NCBI GenBank assembly: GCA_027021085.1
Contig: JALUVB010000024.1
Location: forward strand, 1 to 17,801
Length of the DNA: 17,801 nucleotides
Reading direction: 5' to 3'
Source of the DNA: a bacterium
GTDB lineage: Bacteria > CAIJMQ01 > JAADFP01
Shown: positions 8,007 through 14,658 of the stretch, piece after piece
Position numbering within the stretch: the stretch's first letter is position 1
Layout of the letters: every line of letters begins with the position of its first letter
Notes under the pieces: generated by a model
What the model was told of the DNA's origin: nothing
Seen by the model: the letters and a program-made list of their open reading frames with translations, nothing else
Database searches by the model: none
Made by a program: the position numbers and the translations under genes

Positions 8007-8035
8007 TTGACAAAAGACCTGATTTGAGTTATCTT
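8007..8035 (+). promoter_or_regulatory. Promoter candidate P1 of the export operon
   Basis: Perfect TTGACA (8007-8012), 17-base spacer, TATCTT (8030-8035). A transcript from here would have a leader of about 80 bases. Confidence 0.5.
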
Positions 8036-8121: not shown

Positions 8122-8514
8122 ATGCGAAGCGGTGTAATTTTAGGGTTAGTTTTATTTCTGCTGGGTACGATAATAGCCCCGGCTTTTTCAGCCGAAAAAA
8201 TTACTCAGGGCGAGTTTGCTATGCTTCTGGTAAGGGTGCTCGGGATGGAAGGTGACCTGCCTCCTGCAGCTACCGTGGAAGATTACGGCAGTTTGCTGTC
8301 TTCATTAGGCATGGAGCCGGCATACGGCTGGGATTACGAATTTCCTCTTACCCTGGGTGATCTCTATGATGTGCTTGGCATCGATGGCAAAGGAAATAGG
8401 AGCAAAAAGTTGACTCTGGAAGAGGTTTTGAGGATTCTTGAGAAATGGGTGGGAGAGACTCCTACCTACGTGCCAGAATCAACTCCAGTGAGTGCGGTGT
8501 CTCCTATATTTTAA
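8122..8514 (+). CDS. Small exported protein with SLH-like sequence, first gene of the export operon
   Basis: 130 residues. A clear signal peptide (residues 1-24, cleavage after AFSA) is followed by a mature part of about 106 residues. ITQGEFAMLLVRVLGMEG, an LSSLGMEPAYGWDYEFPLTLGDLYDVLGI stretch (given here only as landmarks near residues 56-91) and LTLEEVLRILEKW recall the helix-loop pattern of S-layer-homology repeats, although the match is loose. The C-terminus is proline/serine/threonine rich. It has a strong ribosome site and follows the two promoters directly, so it is probably the most highly translated gene of the operon. A cell-wall or polymer-binding periplasmic role would fit SLH-like folds; this is inference. 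Function unknown. Confidence 0.75.
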   Translation: MRSGVILGLVLFLLGTIIAPAFSAEKITQGEFAMLLVRVLGMEGDLPPAATVEDYGSLLSSLGMEPAYGWDYEFPLTLGDLYDVLGIDGKGNRSKKLTLEEVLRILEKWVGETPTYVPESTPVSAVSPIF

Positions 8515-8544: not shown

Positions 8545-9765
8545 ATGGGAAAGAAAGGGAGAACAGGTGTTCTGTTAGGCTTATGTCTCCTTCTGGTATC
8601 TTTTTATGCACAGGGGGCAGGGCTTAAGATAAAGCCTTCGCTTAATATATCTTCGGAGTATAACACAAATATTAACCTGAGTGCTGATGACAAGGAGAGC
8701 AGCTGGATTACTTATGTAAGGCCGGGGCTTTCCATCCAGGCACCGCTGGAGAACTTTTACGCAGAGTTGTCTTATATGCCTACTTTTGCTTACTTCAGCA
8801 AAGACAAGGACTACAATTACAAGGCTGACCTGGCAAAGGGTGTTCTCAGGTACAATATTGGCCCCCGCTTTTCCATCGGGATCAAAGATGACTACGAAGA
8901 AACAGCTCTGCCGGATAAAAGCCGGGTGGAGAATGAGGGACGCGTTTACAGAAAGAACACAGCATCCGCTGCCTTAAAATATCAGGTGGAAAATAATTGG
9001 AGCGTGGAAATGGGTTATAAGGTGGATAGATTTAAAGACCCTACCGATGACCCGTTTGCTGATTATAAAGGCCATACTACCTACTTAAAGTTGAAGAACA
9101 ACTTTAGCCCCAGAACTTACCTGGCCATAAATCCTTCCGTCAGGAAGCGCGATTTTAAGGACTCGGAAGCCAAGGATTACGACTCCCTAAGTTTGGGGCT
9201 GGAACTGGGCCATAAGCTGAGTGATGTATGGAAGTTGAAGATAGCACCCTCCTGGGAGTACAGGAATTATACAGAAGCAGAAAGAGATACGGTAAAAAAT
9301 GTTGATTGGAATGTTAACCTTACTGCTAAGTCAGGTAAGGGGAAACTTAGTTTCGACTACTCTAAGAGCATACAGGATACCTTCCGGGATAAATACGCAG
9401 GTGTTGCCTTCTACAACTATTCTGAATTAAGAACCCTGGAGACAAATTATAGGTATGCAACCGTGGAGAGAGTTGGCGTTAACTATGACTATAAGCTAAG
9501 CAAGCTTTTCAAAATAAACCTGGGTACTTTTTATCAGAGAAATGTATACCCGGACGAGATTGTTCTCACCAATGACAAACTGGCAGACAGAGATGAAAGG
9601 TGGAGGTCCAATTTCTACGTTTACCAGGCTGGCTTTGATTACCGGTTAAGCAAGTGGGTCTCAGTGGGCATTACTTACAGATACGTAGATGTAAAGAATA
9701 AACCAGGGGATGATTTCCACTACTCTACTGTTGCCGGTGGTTTGAAGGCAAGCGTTAGCTTTTAG
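8545..9765 (+). CDS. Outer-membrane beta-barrel protein of the export locus (BBP2-like)
   Basis: 406 residues from ATG 8545. The signal peptide is about residues 1-25. The remainder alternates polar and hydrophobic residues in about 10-residue strands with many Tyr, Phe and Trp, and ends in ASVSF, the C-terminal Phe signal used by the outer-membrane insertion machinery. The opening LKIKPSLNISSEYNTNINLS resembles the putative beta-barrel porin 2 family that accompanies exopolysaccharide genes. Position between the SLH-like gene and the Wza-like gene suggests a role in taking polymer across the outer membrane. Strand number is not certain from reading alone; the length fits a barrel of about 16-18 strands. 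Confidence 0.8.
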   Translation: MGKKGRTGVLLGLCLLLVSFYAQGAGLKIKPSLNISSEYNTNINLSADDKESSWITYVRPGLSIQAPLENFYAELSYMPTFAYFSKDKDYNYKADLAKGVLRYNIGPRFSIGIKDDYEETALPDKSRVENEGRVYRKNTASAALKYQVENNWSVEMGYKVDRFKDPTDDPFADYKGHTTYLKLKNNFSPRTYLAINPSVRKRDFKDSEAKDYDSLSLGLELGHKLSDVWKLKIAPSWEYRNYTEAERDTVKNVDWNVNLTAKSGKGKLSFDYSKSIQDTFRDKYAGVAFYNYSELRTLETNYRYATVERVGVNYDYKLSKLFKINLGTFYQRNVYPDEIVLTNDKLADRDERWRSNFYVYQAGFDYRLSKWVSVGITYRYVDVKNKPGDDFHYSTVAGGLKASVSF

Positions 9766-9803
9766 GTAATACACAGATTCATATTTGATTGCAGGGATAT
9801 AAG

Positions 9804-10625
9804 ATGAGAAGAAAAGGGACATGGGGGGTAATTTTGTTAATTGCTCTCCCCCTGTTCCTTTTTGCCTCTGCCTACAAGGTAGGCAGCAAGGACGTACTGC
9901 AGGTTACTGTCTGGAATCATCCCGAACTAAGTATGGAAGCTACTGTAAACAACGAGGGTAATATTCAGTTGCCTCTTCTGGGAGAAGTGAAGGTTGCCGG
10001 GTTAACCTGTGAGGAAATCAGGAAGCTGATTACAGAGAAGTATCAAAAAGACTTTATTAAAGACCCCCAGATTTTCGTCGCGGTCAAGGAATACAATAGC
10101 CAGAAGGTGATGGTTCTGGGAGCAGTGAATAACCCGGGTGATTACGTATTGAAGGGAGAAACCCGTTTATTAGAAATTCTTTCCCAGGCAGGGGGAGTGT
10201 CTTCTGAAGGTGGTAAAGCAAAAATAATAATAATGAGAAAGCCGCAGGAAGGAAAGGAAAGTTCCCCCTTGACCGTAGACCTTTACAATGTACTGAGAAA
10301 GGGTAACTGGAAGGGTAATATCCTTCTTAAACCGGGGGATGTAATTTACGTAAGCGGTGAAGAAGTTCCCAGTGTACATGTGATGGGGGAAGTAAAGAAG
10401 CCCGGCTCCTATGCCTGGAAAGAAGGTTTGACGGCTTTTGAGGCAGTACTCCTGGCGGGAGGTTTTGCCGAGGGAGCTTCCAGGAAAATTAAGGTTATCA
10501 GGGGGAAGGATGACAAGGAACAAAATATTATTATTAATGTAAAGGAGATACTCAGGGGGAATAAAGAGAGCGATATTTTGCTTAAACCCGGTGATATAAT
10601 TTATGTTCCCACCTCCTGGTTTTAA
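9804..10625 (+). CDS. Wza-like polysaccharide export (OPX) protein with two SLBB domains
   Basis: Periplasmic channel component for polysaccharide export. Signal peptide about residues 1-23 (MRRKG, then a hydrophobic core ending ASA). The poly-export domain follows: YKVGSKDVLQVTVWNHPELS, then NIQLPLLGEVKVAGLT. Two SLBB domains follow: KVMVLGAVNNPGDYVL with LLEILSQAGGV, and VHVMGEVKKPGSYAW with FEAVLLAGGF, each ending in an LLKPGDxIYV block. There is no lipobox Cys and no C-terminal amphipathic helix of the kind that lets E. coli Wza cross the outer membrane; it ends soon after the second SLBB domain (TSWF). At 273 residues it is shorter than Wza (about 380). ATG 9804 is chosen over TTG 9789 because CAGGGA lies just before it. 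Confidence 0.88.
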   Translation: MRRKGTWGVILLIALPLFLFASAYKVGSKDVLQVTVWNHPELSMEATVNNEGNIQLPLLGEVKVAGLTCEEIRKLITEKYQKDFIKDPQIFVAVKEYNSQKVMVLGAVNNPGDYVLKGETRLLEILSQAGGVSSEGGKAKIIIMRKPQEGKESSPLTVDLYNVLRKGNWKGNILLKPGDVIYVSGEEVPSVHVMGEVKKPGSYAWKEGLTAFEAVLLAGGFAEGASRKIKVIRGKDDKEQNIIINVKEILRGNKESDILLKPGDIIYVPTSWF

Positions 10626-10633
10626 AACTTGAA

Positions 10634-12043
10634 ATGGAAAATTTTGTAACACCCGACGAATACCTCAAGGTACTTTTGAAAAGGAAGTACTATTTTATTA
10701 TTCCTGTTATAGTAGCCCTGATCCTTGGTTTTACAATCAACAGAATGCAGAAGCCGTTATATAAGGCTACCTGCCGGATTCTTATTGAGCCACCTTTACC
10801 AAAAGTTACTTTAGGAGAGGAAATAATAAGAAGTGGTTACTATAATTATTATTATTTCCAGAATCAGACAGAGGTTATCCGGAGTATGAGTGTGGCCAAG
10901 AGGGCTGCCCAGATGCTTTATCCAGAAGCAAAAGGAGAAAAGCTGGCCAGGTTGGCGGCAAGGATAAAGAATTCTGTGAGTGTAGCCCAGGCAGGAGAAA
11001 GACAGCCGGGAATAGTATTTATTACTGCCTATAGTTCTGACCCAAAGATGACGGCAAAAATTGCCAATACCATGGCGGAAGCATACGCAAAAGAGAACCT
11101 GTACAGCAGAACAAAGAATTTCCAGGATACATACGCATTTCTTACCAATAAACTTTTTAAATTAAAGAAAGAGTTAACAGATTCACGCAGAAAACTGGAA
11201 GAGTTCAAGAGAAAACGCAACGTTGTCTTAGTAGGCAATATGGATATTGACATGGAGAAGCTTTCAGAATTCAATGCTCAGCTTATCTCTACCAAGGCAG
11301 AGCGATTAGGGCTGGAGGTGAAGCTGCAGGAGATAAAGAAGCTTTCGCCGGAAGAAAAGCTTGTAGCAGCTTCTTCCTTTTTCCCGGATAATTCTGTGAT
11401 TCAGGACCTGAAAACGCAGCTTACCAATAAAAAAATAGAACTTTCCGGGCTTCTTCAGACCTACAAGGAAAACTATCCGGCAGTAAAGCAGTTGAGAGAA
11501 GGAATCGAATTACTGAAAAAGATGCTGGAGGAAGAGATAAACAAGAGTGTCGTTAACCTGGAAACGAATATCCGTGCTTTGCAGGCAAAAGAGGAAGCCC
11601 TGAGTAGGGCCATAAAAGACTACCGGAAAGATGCGCAGGACTTTAGCGAAAAGCAATCAGAATATAACCTGCTGCAGCAGGAGGTGAAGACCAATGAAGA
11701 GATATACCTCCTGCTCACCAAGAAGTTAGCTGAGGCGGATATTTCCAAGGGGCTGGAAGAAAATAATGTACGGGTGATTGATCAGGCCAGGATACCCGGG
11801 GCACCGGTAAGACCCAAGAAGACTATGAATTTACTTTTCTCTCTGGTAGTGGGGCTGGTGCTGGGGGTGGGTTTGGCCTATGTCAGAGAGTATATGGATA
11901 TCACAATAAGGGATTCTGAGGAAGTGGAAAAGTATTTCCATGTGCAGGTTCTGGGAAGGATTCCTAAAGTGAAGGATATAAAGGATTTTTGGGATAGAGA
12001 AAATAATAATAAGGAAGACGACAACCATGAAGAGAAGAGCTAA
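10634..12043 (+). CDS. Wzz/GNVR-family polysaccharide co-polymerase (chain length determinant)
   Basis: Inner-membrane protein that governs polymer length and links synthesis to export. 469 residues: short cytosolic start, membrane helix 19-36, a Wzz domain with YYNYYYFQNQTEVIRS, a long coiled-coil periplasmic part (about 165-370), the proline-rich IPGAPVRPKK before the second helix at about 398-417, and a charged cytosolic tail ending in Asn/Asp/Glu-rich sequence. It carries no ATPase domain: the kinase is a separate ORF that overlaps its 3' end by 17 bp in another frame. This is the two-protein arrangement, rather than the fused Wzc form common in Proteobacteria. No clear ribosome site precedes ATG 10634, eight bases after the previous stop. 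Confidence 0.9.
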   Translation: MENFVTPDEYLKVLLKRKYYFIIPVIVALILGFTINRMQKPLYKATCRILIEPPLPKVTLGEEIIRSGYYNYYYFQNQTEVIRSMSVAKRAAQMLYPEAKGEKLARLAARIKNSVSVAQAGERQPGIVFITAYSSDPKMTAKIANTMAEAYAKENLYSRTKNFQDTYAFLTNKLFKLKKELTDSRRKLEEFKRKRNVVLVGNMDIDMEKLSEFNAQLISTKAERLGLEVKLQEIKKLSPEEKLVAASSFFPDNSVIQDLKTQLTNKKIELSGLLQTYKENYPAVKQLREGIELLKKMLEEEINKSVVNLETNIRALQAKEEALSRAIKDYRKDAQDFSEKQSEYNLLQQEVKTNEEIYLLLTKKLAEADISKGLEENNVRVIDQARIPGAPVRPKKTMNLLFSLVVGLVLGVGLAYVREYMDITIRDSEEVEKYFHVQVLGRIPKVKDIKDFWDRENNNKEDDNHEEKS

Positions 12044-12734
12044 GAAAAAGGATAAAGGCGGATACTACTACGGATACGGTGAGGGAGCTGTGGAGGAGGC
12101 ATTTAGAACCCTGCGCACTAATTTCTTCTCTGCTATAAAGACTCCCGAAGGTAGTTTAAATACTTTCCTGGTGACCAGTCCTGCTCCCGGCGATGGTAAA
12201 ACCAGTATCCTTCTCCTTCTGGGTAAGTACTGCGGGGAAATAGGGAAGAAAATTTTGCTTATTGACACGGATTTGCGGAAACCCGCCGTACATAGATACC
12301 TAAATATTTCACCCGAAAAGGGTGTGGTGAAGTTTCTCAGGGGAGAAATGAGTATAGAGGAGGTAATTCATCCTACTCCCCTGCAAAATGTCTCGGTAAT
12401 TCCTTGTGAAGAGACTACCTCCAATCCTGGTACACTATTGACTACTCCTCGTTTTAGAGAGTTACTCTCATATGCGCAAAAACATTACGATTTTGTTTTT
12501 CTGGACTCGCCTCCCGTACTCTTGGTCTCTGATCCCGGAATATTGGCGCAGGAGGTGGGAAGTGTTATTCTTGTAGTCTCTCAGGGGCAGACTTCTCGCC
12601 GTGCCGGGATGCAGGTGAAAAACCACCTGGAACGGCTTAATGCGAAGATAATAGGGGTGATATTAAACAGGGCAGAGAGAAGTGAGGGGGGATACTATTA
12701 CTATCGTTACTATTCTTCCAAGAAAGAAGAATAA
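12027..12734 (+). CDS. Bacterial tyrosine kinase of CpsD/CapB type
   Basis: Cytosolic ATPase that autophosphorylates on tyrosine and cycles with its Wzz partner. 235 residues. EEAFRTLRTN (24-32) supplies the E-x2-R-x2-R oligomerisation motif. Walker A is APGDGKT with K58; Walker A' is LLIDTDLRKP with D80 and D82; Walker B is FVFLDSPP with D160. The C-terminus holds the expected tyrosine cluster (GGYYYYRYY, Y223-226 and Y228-229). A second tyrosine cluster, GGYYYGYGEG (11-20), sits before the first motif. Start 12027 has AAGGAAG upstream and overlaps the wzz-type gene by 17 bp. It is the last gene before a 144-bp spacer. Confidence 0.92.
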   Translation: MKRRAKKKDKGGYYYGYGEGAVEEAFRTLRTNFFSAIKTPEGSLNTFLVTSPAPGDGKTSILLLLGKYCGEIGKKILLIDTDLRKPAVHRYLNISPEKGVVKFLRGEMSIEEVIHPTPLQNVSVIPCEETTSNPGTLLTTPRFRELLSYAQKHYDFVFLDSPPVLLVSDPGILAQEVGSVILVVSQGQTSRRAGMQVKNHLERLNAKIIGVILNRAERSEGGYYYYRYYSSKKEE

Positions 12735-12878
12735 TCTACATTTTCTACCCCTGACAGCGAAATATTCCTATCTCCAGGTGAAGTATGGGGATACTTTTAG
12801 TCAGGATTCTGCTCCGCGGAAGGATGTGGGAAAAGTGGTGCCGCTTCCCCGCCTGTGGAGCGCTACCTCTCTGCGAGA
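12735..12878 (+). other. 144-bp spacer with possible RNA structure before the ABC exporter
   Basis: CCTGAC (12750-12755) pairs with GTCAGG (12800-12805). Inside, AAGTAT and ATACTT (12781-12796) flank GGGG, followed by TTTAG. A competing pairing joins TATCTCC (about 12769-12775) with GGGGATA (one G-U). The hairpins are too weak for a confident terminator. One plus-strand frame stays open through the spacer and ends in a TGA overlapping the ABC start as ATGA (12879-12882). It could hold a 34-codon ORF from GTG 12778, or it could be chance. Confidence 0.3.
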
Positions 12879-13865
12879 ATGAATCCAGTAGTATGTGAAG
12901 GAGTGGTAAAGGATTATCCTTTGCCCAAAACTTTCAAACAGTTTTTTCTTTCTCCCTTCAAAGAGAAGTACACGAGGGCTTTAAAAGGCATAAGTTTCGA
13001 AGTGGGCAGGGGGGAGATATTTGTATTAATAGGCCCAAACGGAGCGGGGAAGACTACCCTGTTCAAAATAATCGCCACCTTACTTCTTCCCGATAAAGGC
13101 AGAGTTACAGTAAATGGTTTTGACGTGCTCAGAGAAGAAAACAAGGTAAGGAAGAGTATAGGGTACGTGGTGAATGAAGAAAGGAGTTTTTACTGGAGAC
13201 TCTCGGGGTGGGAGAATTTAAAGTTTTTTGGTGTGTTGAATAATCTTTCCGGGAAAGAATTGAGAGAGAGAGTTAACCAGGTGGTAGAATTAACCGGGTT
13301 GGAAGATTGGATATATCGTCCTGTGAAAGACTATTCTACCGGGCTAAGGCAGCGATTATCCCTGGCCAGGGGGCTCCTGGTTTCTCCTTCCCTGCTCATT
13401 CTCGATGAGCCTACCCGTAGTCTTGATCCTATAATGGCGAAAGAATTGAGGGCATTTGTAAAAGAGCGGGCCTCGCAGGATGGTTTGACCGTGCTTCTGG
13501 CCACCCACAATTTAAACGAGGCAGAAGAAATGGGAGGAAGAATTGCCATTATAGATAAAGGGGTAATTAAGAAAGTAGGGAAAGCAGGAGAAATAAAAAA
13601 GGATATCACCAGGGATAAAAGGTACTATTTAGAATTTAGTATTCCGGGGGGGATTTCTTCCCTGAGCATAACAAAGCTTTCCATAATCGAAAGCGAAGGG
13701 GAAAAGTACAGGGCAGAAGCGATTCTTCCCGAGGAAAAGCTTAATAAACTTTTGCGGAAAATACTTGATAAAGGGGGGAAGATTTCTGAGGTAAGGAAAA
13801 AAGAGTTGACGCTGGAAGAATCCTTCTCACGTATTATTGAAAAGGATAAGGGCTATGGTGATTAA
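12879..13865 (+). CDS. ABC-2 type exporter, ATP-binding subunit
   Basis: Drives an ABC-2 exporter together with the next gene. 328 residues from ATG 12879. Walker A GPNGAGKTT (52-60, K58), signature YSTGLRQRLSLARG (S153-G155, the variant usual in the NatA/CcmA type), Walker B LLILDEPT (D176, E177), and H-loop ATHN (H210). A C-terminal accessory domain of about 90 residues follows (KYRAEAILPEEKLNKLL). The N-terminus, with YPLPKTFKQFFLSPFKEKYTRA, is the extended form found in a group of uncharacterised exporters. GTG 12855 would add eight residues but has no ribosome site. ATG 12879 also has only a weak site. The permease start lies within its 3' end (11-bp overlap). The substrate is unknown. 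It is not clearly a polysaccharide exporter, because it lacks a recognisable sugar-binding extension. Confidence 0.88.
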   Translation: MNPVVCEGVVKDYPLPKTFKQFFLSPFKEKYTRALKGISFEVGRGEIFVLIGPNGAGKTTLFKIIATLLLPDKGRVTVNGFDVLREENKVRKSIGYVVNEERSFYWRLSGWENLKFFGVLNNLSGKELRERVNQVVELTGLEDWIYRPVKDYSTGLRQRLSLARGLLVSPSLLILDEPTRSLDPIMAKELRAFVKERASQDGLTVLLATHNLNEAEEMGGRIAIIDKGVIKKVGKAGEIKKDITRDKRYYLEFSIPGGISSLSITKLSIIESEGEKYRAEAILPEEKLNKLLRKILDKGGKISEVRKKELTLEESFSRIIEKDKGYGD

Positions 13866-14658
13866 AAAAGCTCTCTATTTCTTAAGGAGAGATTTCCTGG
13901 AGGCATTGAGTTACCGTTTTGCCTTCTTTTTGCAATTAGGGGGAGTATTTTTCTCTATTCTTACCTTCTTTTTCCTTTCCCGGCTCTTTGGTAAAAATAT
14001 TCCCCTGCTTCAGCCATACGGGGGGAATTATTTTGCCTTCGCTCTCATTGGCATTGCTTTCTCTACTTACCTGGGAGTATCTCTGGGCAGTTTTTCTTCC
14101 AGTATCCGGAGAGAACAGATAATGGGCACCATAGAATCCATCCTGGTTACGCAGACCCCTATTCCCTTGCTCATACTGTTTTCTTCTTTATACAACTTTT
14201 TGTTCTCTTCTTTCCACGTCATTTTATACATATTGATAGGCGGGCTTTTCTTTAATGTGCACCTGACAGTAAATTTTATTGCTGCTTTTGTTTTCCTTTT
14301 CCTGGCCATCACATCTTTTGCGAGCGTAGGGATAATATCGGCTTCCTTTATTATGGTATTCAAAAAGGGTGACCCTTTTACCTGGGTGTTTTCCACGCTT
14401 AACGGACTGTTGGGAGGAGTGTTGTATCCGGTGAAGGTTCTTCCTCAAGGCCTTCAGAAAATAGCCTATTTTCTCCCTACTACCCACGTCCTGGAGGGAA
14501 TGAGAATGTCGCTTCTAAAAGGGTATTCTCTGAAAATGTTGATGCCAGAGTGGGCTTTTCTGGTGGTGTTTTCTCTGATTATGCTTCCTTTAAGCATATA
14601 CCTATTCGGGAAAGCAGTAAGAAAGGCCAAGAAAGATGGTACACTTATACAATATTAA
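13855..14658 (+). CDS. ABC-2 type exporter, permease subunit
   Basis: Inner-membrane partner of the preceding ATPase. 267 residues from ATG 13855, with about six hydrophobic segments. The cytosolic start ALYFLRRDFLEALSYR is the usual interface helix, a family EQIMGTIESILVT block follows the second segment, and LPTTHVLEGMRMSLLKG near the end is the conserved ABC-2 loop. ATG 13855 is preferred over TTG 13837 because AAGGAT lies before it. The stop (14656-14658) shares a base with the ATG of the next gene (TAATG), so the ATPase, the permease and the phosphoesterase are likely translated as a set. Confidence 0.88.
   Translation: MVIKKALYFLRRDFLEALSYRFAFFLQLGGVFFSILTFFFLSRLFGKNIPLLQPYGGNYFAFALIGIAFSTYLGVSLGSFSSSIRREQIMGTIESILVTQTPIPLLILFSSLYNFLFSSFHVILYILIGGLFFNVHLTVNFIAAFVFLFLAITSFASVGIISASFIMVFKKGDPFTWVFSTLNGLLGGVLYPVKVLPQGLQKIAYFLPTTHVLEGMRMSLLKGYSLKMLMPEWAFLVVFSLIMLPLSIYLFGKAVRKAKKDGTLIQY

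Follow-up and report, generated by a model that had tools for sequence, protein, structure and literature searches.

Composite translocons that combine an export (OPX) protein with a separate beta-barrel have already been published (Schwabe 2022, PMC9601211; Saidi 2022, PMC9603273), including forms with a D1D2D2 domain architecture. Schwabe describes short OPX proteins as having at most 280 aa, no terminal helix, and a coupled barrel with 16 or more strands encoded within five genes of the OPX gene; that survey counts 453 such cases, places barrel-coupled short OPX proteins in 10 phyla, reports that modelled short OPX proteins of more than 250 aa show the D1D2D2 architecture, and used a second search model made from VpsM (PMC9601211). 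Saidi et al. refer to such OPX proteins as class 3 and to the barrels as Wzp, and assign about 30% of class 3 to a secreted, non-lipid kind; barrels resembling TIGR03016/BBP2_2 are not among the barrel queries of that study (PMC9603273). Described examples are EpsY/EpsX of Myxococcus xanthus (WzaX/WzpX) and VpsN/VpsM of Vibrio cholerae, the latter named in PMC9601211. In Wza itself, the D4 helix comes after the end of D3, as is generally known and also stated in PMC9601211.

The stretch of DNA analysed here (the window; 17,801 nucleotides of contig JALUVB010000024.1, assembly GCA_027021085.1) carries five closely packed genes on the + strand, which encode a small secreted protein, a barrel, an OPX protein, a co-polymerase (PCP), and a tyrosine kinase. 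They are separated by 30, 38, and 8 bases, and the co-polymerase and kinase genes overlap. The 230-base gap upstream of the small gene contains a sigma-70-like promoter pattern, TTGACA-17-TATCTT (8007-8035, + strand, 10 of 12 matches), which may mark the start of the operon; the pattern is weak, as three such sites were found versus 1.0 expected in shuffles. The assembly comprises 1.93 Mb in 307 contigs and is 94% complete, and it encodes an Omp85/BamA protein, which supports a diderm envelope with an outer membrane. A scan of genome contigs with the OPX protein returned three loci, only one of which was a close relative: the genus-mate, deposited as 'Caldisericota bacterium isolate M_MaxBin.041'.

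The OPX gene (9804-10625, + strand) begins with ATG at 9804, has a stop codon ending at 10625, and encodes 273 aa, or 278 aa from an alternative TTG, so that either form lies within the short-OPX limit of Schwabe. Its Pfam domains are PF02563 (Poly_export or PES; E 7.8e-28, 96.9 bits against a gathering score of 28), SLBB_2, and SLBB, and there was no Pfam match to Wza_C or GfcC. This D1D2D2 arrangement falls under the class 3 definition, which is Poly_export-SLBB(1-7) only. The sole cysteine is residue 69 and the N-terminal hydrophobic stretch is cysteine-free, so the protein lacks a lipobox. It aligns to residues 60-324 of Escherichia coli Wza (2J58), which correspond to D1-D3, and ends three residues later; the membrane-crossing D4 helix is therefore absent. 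An earlier note, made from the DNA letters, had described exactly these features, namely two SLBB domains with neither a lipobox nor a C-terminal outer-membrane helix, and they hold up in the domain searches and the Wza alignment. The protein also matches the solved chain 9n9a, a short OPX protein of 186 aa, and ends in VPTSWF versus VPESFF in 9n9a. An AlphaFold model of low confidence, built from a four-sequence alignment, is good in D1 and weak in the rest; it shows no terminal helix, and a transmembrane helix in a predicted structure is what the earlier note had named as speaking against its reading.

Several described systems share parts of this organisation. Both EpsY/EpsX and the window pair consist of a short helixless OPX protein encoded beside a barrel, in a polysaccharide operon with a PCP. 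EpsY, however, is a D1D2 protein of 217 aa that is described as lipid-anchored, whereas the window OPX is a D1D2D2 protein of 273 aa without a lipobox. EpsX/Wzp homologues occur in myxobacteria only, according to Saidi (PMC9603273), whereas the window barrel is of the TIGR03016/BBP2_2 kind. It has been argued that D1D2 systems have an extended PCP; a D1D2D2 protein should equal the height of Wza minus D4, and an extended PCP may thus be unneeded here. VpsN/VpsM likewise comprises a short OPX protein with a coupled barrel, but a small upstream protein, which is present in the window, goes unmentioned in the available VpsN/VpsM account (PMC9601211). In the alignment, Wza D1-D3 cover almost all of the mature window OPX, but Wza possesses a D4 helix and an N-terminal lipid and the window protein has neither. 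A further system for comparison is the XrtA/PEP-CTERM set (TIGR03016 barrel, TIGR03027 OPX, TIGR03007 PCP, and TIGR03018 kinase; EpsE/EpsF/EpsG). Its models are the best for the window barrel and among the best for the OPX protein, PCP, and kinase, yet all score below their cut-offs, and an exosortase (PF09721) had no match in the 94% complete genome, so we do not class the locus as PEP-CTERM. The window pair fits the published composite-translocon kind and is a new member of it in a Caldisericota-labelled lineage.

The barrel gene (8545-9765, + strand) begins with ATG at 8545, downstream of AAGGAGG, has a stop codon ending at 9765, and encodes 406 aa with a signal peptide recognised by eye and a C-terminal Phe. 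PF13505 (OMP_b-brl) matches it above the cut-off (36.7 bits against 28.7), and the nearest named model is TIGR03016 (E 1.3e-18), with 67.2 bits below a cut-off of 90.85. A leave-one-out profile of 12 related barrels, from which the window sequence was excluded, finds it at E 1.8e-45, and the 12-barrel profile had no matches in seven E. coli barrels, 200 shuffles, or the other ORFs of the window. The product of 8545-9765 is, by these profile matches, clearly a beta-barrel, as was proposed for this signal-bearing, Phe-terminated protein from its sequence. The label BBP2-like, which had also been proposed, fits its relatives but not the window barrel itself: PF10082 (BBP2_2) matches other members of the family at up to E 3.9e-25 and has no match in the window barrel up to E 0.1. 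Such relatives are nevertheless part of the leave-one-out profile that detects the window barrel. A sequence search of the PDB returned no meaningful match, plasmid records returned no match to the barrel, and a single-sequence AlphaFold model of the mature protein (pLDDT 29.5) was unusable.

Topology modelling suggests a barrel of about 18 strands. The barrel scored -1 in a first model, versus -30 (sd 4) for shuffles; this model allows a long free N-terminus and thereby undercounts strands, and a second model was used instead. The second, crude model gives its best score to 18 strands, and counts of 14 and 16 come within about 1 nat of it; in trials on known barrels, it returned the correct count for those of 8, 10, and 14 strands and too low a count for those of 12, 16, and 18. 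With 18 strands, the residues that face outward are apolar with few exceptions (no Asp/Glu, four Lys/Arg), and those that face inward are polar and include 19 positive and 12 negative ones. The pattern fits a predicted 18-stranded barrel as a matter of consistency rather than proof, given that inward and outward positions were assigned by hydrophobicity itself.

The barrel family recurs beside OPX genes. We searched 117 genomes with TIGR03016 and read the barrel loci. With the window, the genus-mate, and a contig-end fragment set aside, 14 distant loci could be assessed, and the barrel adjoins an OPX gene in 11 of them, counting G091, in which the two lie within some 2 kb of each other. The three loci without an OPX gene (G005, G063:C198, and G104) all have FecR genes adjoining the barrel; the barrels of G005 and G063:C198 carry or seem to carry TPR repeats, and CHASE2 genes then follow. 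In the genus-mate, the gene order is kept over two contig ends (small gene-barrel and OPX-PCP-kinase-ABC), with the barrel at the end of one contig and the OPX gene at the start of the other; a relative with the operon kept and the barrel lost, which the earlier note had listed as contrary evidence, was not encountered in this nearest relative. The five other genomes of the window's class had no Poly_export match and a single weak, unrelated-looking barrel match. A barrel match in G003 (E 0.007) was judged unrelated by eye. Judged by gene order, the pairing of barrel and OPX is not chance.

Some barrels of the same family lie apart from OPX genes, with FecR and/or CHASE2 genes or with an O-antigen polymerase-like gene. 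A three-gene set of TPR-barrel, FecR, and CHASE2, away from OPX, is found in two distant genomes (L066 1-6507 in G005, which belongs to the window's class, and L070 6922-11580 in G063), and the TPR repeats have Pfam support in L066 only. In G104 (L057 1698-10104), a TIGR03016-like barrel gene lies by a FecR gene and a cluster with an O-antigen-type ABC transporter and an aminotransferase, with no OPX gene within 18 kb.

Together, the OPX protein and the barrel very probably constitute a composite outer-membrane outlet for exopolysaccharide. We infer that the OPX protein would assemble into a ring in the periplasm; this ring, with its stacked D1-D2-D2 domains, would take the polymer from the co-polymerase (10634-12043, + strand). 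The co-polymerase has Wzz and GNVR domain matches, two predicted membrane helices at 20-38 and 399-417, and a periplasmic part of about 360 aa, and no other Wzz-type protein turned up in the genome. It would be regulated by the BY-type tyrosine autokinase (12027-12734, + strand), which is encoded by a separate gene, matches TIGR01007 above the cut-off (141.8 bits), and has terminal tyrosine clusters (YYYGYG at the N-terminus and YYYYRYY at the C-terminus). As the OPX ring has no membrane helix or lipid anchor, it would dock under the barrel, which would span the outer membrane and release the polymer. The window OPX is the only Poly_export protein found in the 94% complete genome, which makes the barrel the natural exit.

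Two other roles for the barrel have to be weighed. It could be an accessory surface protein like Wzi, with the OPX protein making its own passage or using another pore. Wzi, a barrel with 18 strands that belongs to capsule clusters, organises capsule on the cell surface and is dispensable for export (PMC9601211, PMC9603273), and barrels of the Wzi type adjoin OPX genes of all classes according to Saidi (PMC9603273). The window OPX, however, is missing the one domain by which OPX proteins are known to cross the membrane, and barrels of the present family accompany helixless rather than helix-tailed OPX proteins. The latter emerged from a reverse test of 32 OPX places in 41 genomes, located by the OPX domain alone and excluding truncated and contig-edge cases, with a tail taken as at least 25 residues and the barrel sought within 6 kb. 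After hand correction of three gene models (G034:C49, G031:C77, and G031:C130), a family barrel was near five of the seven helixless OPX genes, two of these five barrels being members of the profile's training set, versus none of the 17 helix-tailed ones (Fisher p about 0.0005, or 0.0004 with 18 helix-tailed genes instead of 17). The two helixless OPX proteins with no barrel detected nearby (G034:C27, 595 aa; G010:C22, 386 aa) may be served by a barrel of another kind, invisible to the profile used. We thus regard an accessory role as improbable. That the barrel is a general porin with no connection to the OPX protein, beside its gene by coincidence, is more improbable still: its nearest Pfam match is indeed the generic PF13505, but the family adjoins OPX genes in many distant genomes, and the order small gene-barrel-OPX-PCP is repeated in G225, G315, and G083. 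The reading of a helixless OPX protein served by a separate barrel, as put forward in the earlier note, is supported by the truncation of the OPX protein and by the adjacency of barrel and OPX genes in distant genomes.

The nature of the polymer is less direct to read, as no glycosyltransferase is encoded in the operon, and polymer and pathway have to be deduced from other genes. Downstream of the OPX gene are the Wzz gene and the ABC_tran and ABC2_membrane genes of an ABC transporter pair, which begins 120 bases past the kinase gene and may have a role in the pathway: a putative DrrA-like ATPase (12855-13865, + strand), which adjoins the operon in both genus members, and its partner, an ABC-2 membrane subunit identified by domain matches (13837-14658, + strand). 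The outlet could serve an ABC-dependent polymer of this pair (12855-14658) in place of a Wzx/Wzy product; in favour of this, both genus members carry the pair downstream of the kinase gene in the same orientation, and no terminator-like site separates pair from kinase. This is unlikely in our view, since the ATPase looks like that of DrrA drug exporters, the match of the membrane subunit to KpsM is very weak, and Wzx/Wzy is the usual setting for a separately encoded BY-kinase and a PCP of the Wzz type. Moreover, other parts of the genome yielded five matches to Wzy_C and encode one initiating transferase and a flippase-like protein, which makes a Wzx/Wzy pathway possible. The polymer exported by the OPX-barrel outlet is thus probably made by a Wzx/Wzy pathway with genes elsewhere in the genome.

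The locus had been described as a two-part channel. The pair is real and recurrent, but the description may be incomplete, as the barrel gene is repeatedly preceded by a gene for a small secreted protein. In the window, the candidate third component (8122-8514, + strand) is a protein of 130 aa that ends in PVSAVSPIF, has no Pfam or NCBIfam match, and is kept in the genus-mate (83%). A reading as S-layer homology, prompted by the sequence pattern, found no support, with no SLH match in Pfam up to E 5 or in solved structures. We ran a profile of four members, assembled from searches and the reading of neighbouring genes, on 386 genomes. The small gene lies immediately 5' of the barrel gene in G225 (followed by OPX, PCP, and kinase), in G315 (followed by OPX and PCP; profile match E 0.007 only), and in two genomes that contributed training members, G083 (followed by OPX) and G094:C71 (OPX absent). 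It is one gene from the barrel in G362, where OPX is absent, and a longer version lies two genes 5' of the barrel in G026. Under the assumption that about 1% of genes are so close to such a barrel, chance would put four of five places near one with p about 5e-8. Family members are encoded at 8122-8514 of the window and at L155 7965-8873, L158 7536-7991, L065 10331-10858, L136 6375-7025, and L156 7929-8465, and several of them terminate in S-x-S-P-[I/V]. A match in G194 (E 0.006) was judged unrelated by eye.

The small gene is missing from many barrel-OPX loci, and in G041 and G050 a different protein stands in its place. The small protein thus appears, from gene neighbourhoods, to be a recurrent but optional partner of barrel-OPX loci. 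The secreted pair in its place in G041 and G050 (L068 7257-7928 and L069 7899-8429) is mutually related (E 5e-7) and has no Pfam match. In G234, with no barrel detected nearby, the small domain is fused to FecR (L154 6246-9525) and a gene for a CHASE2-adenylate/guanylate cyclase follows, which hints at a common role in regulation or on the peptidoglycan side. It is quite possible, if somewhat short of probable, that the outlet has an undescribed third component in this small secreted protein, which would work with the barrel, e.g., as a periplasmic adaptor, an assembly factor, or a gate.

These results add a little-studied lineage to those with a ring-plus-barrel outlet, and the barrel here resembles TIGR03016/BBP2_2. 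The new element is the small gene upstream of the barrel, whose product is not named as a translocon part in the available text of PMC9601211 or PMC9603273 and which provides a specific third-part candidate that can be tested.
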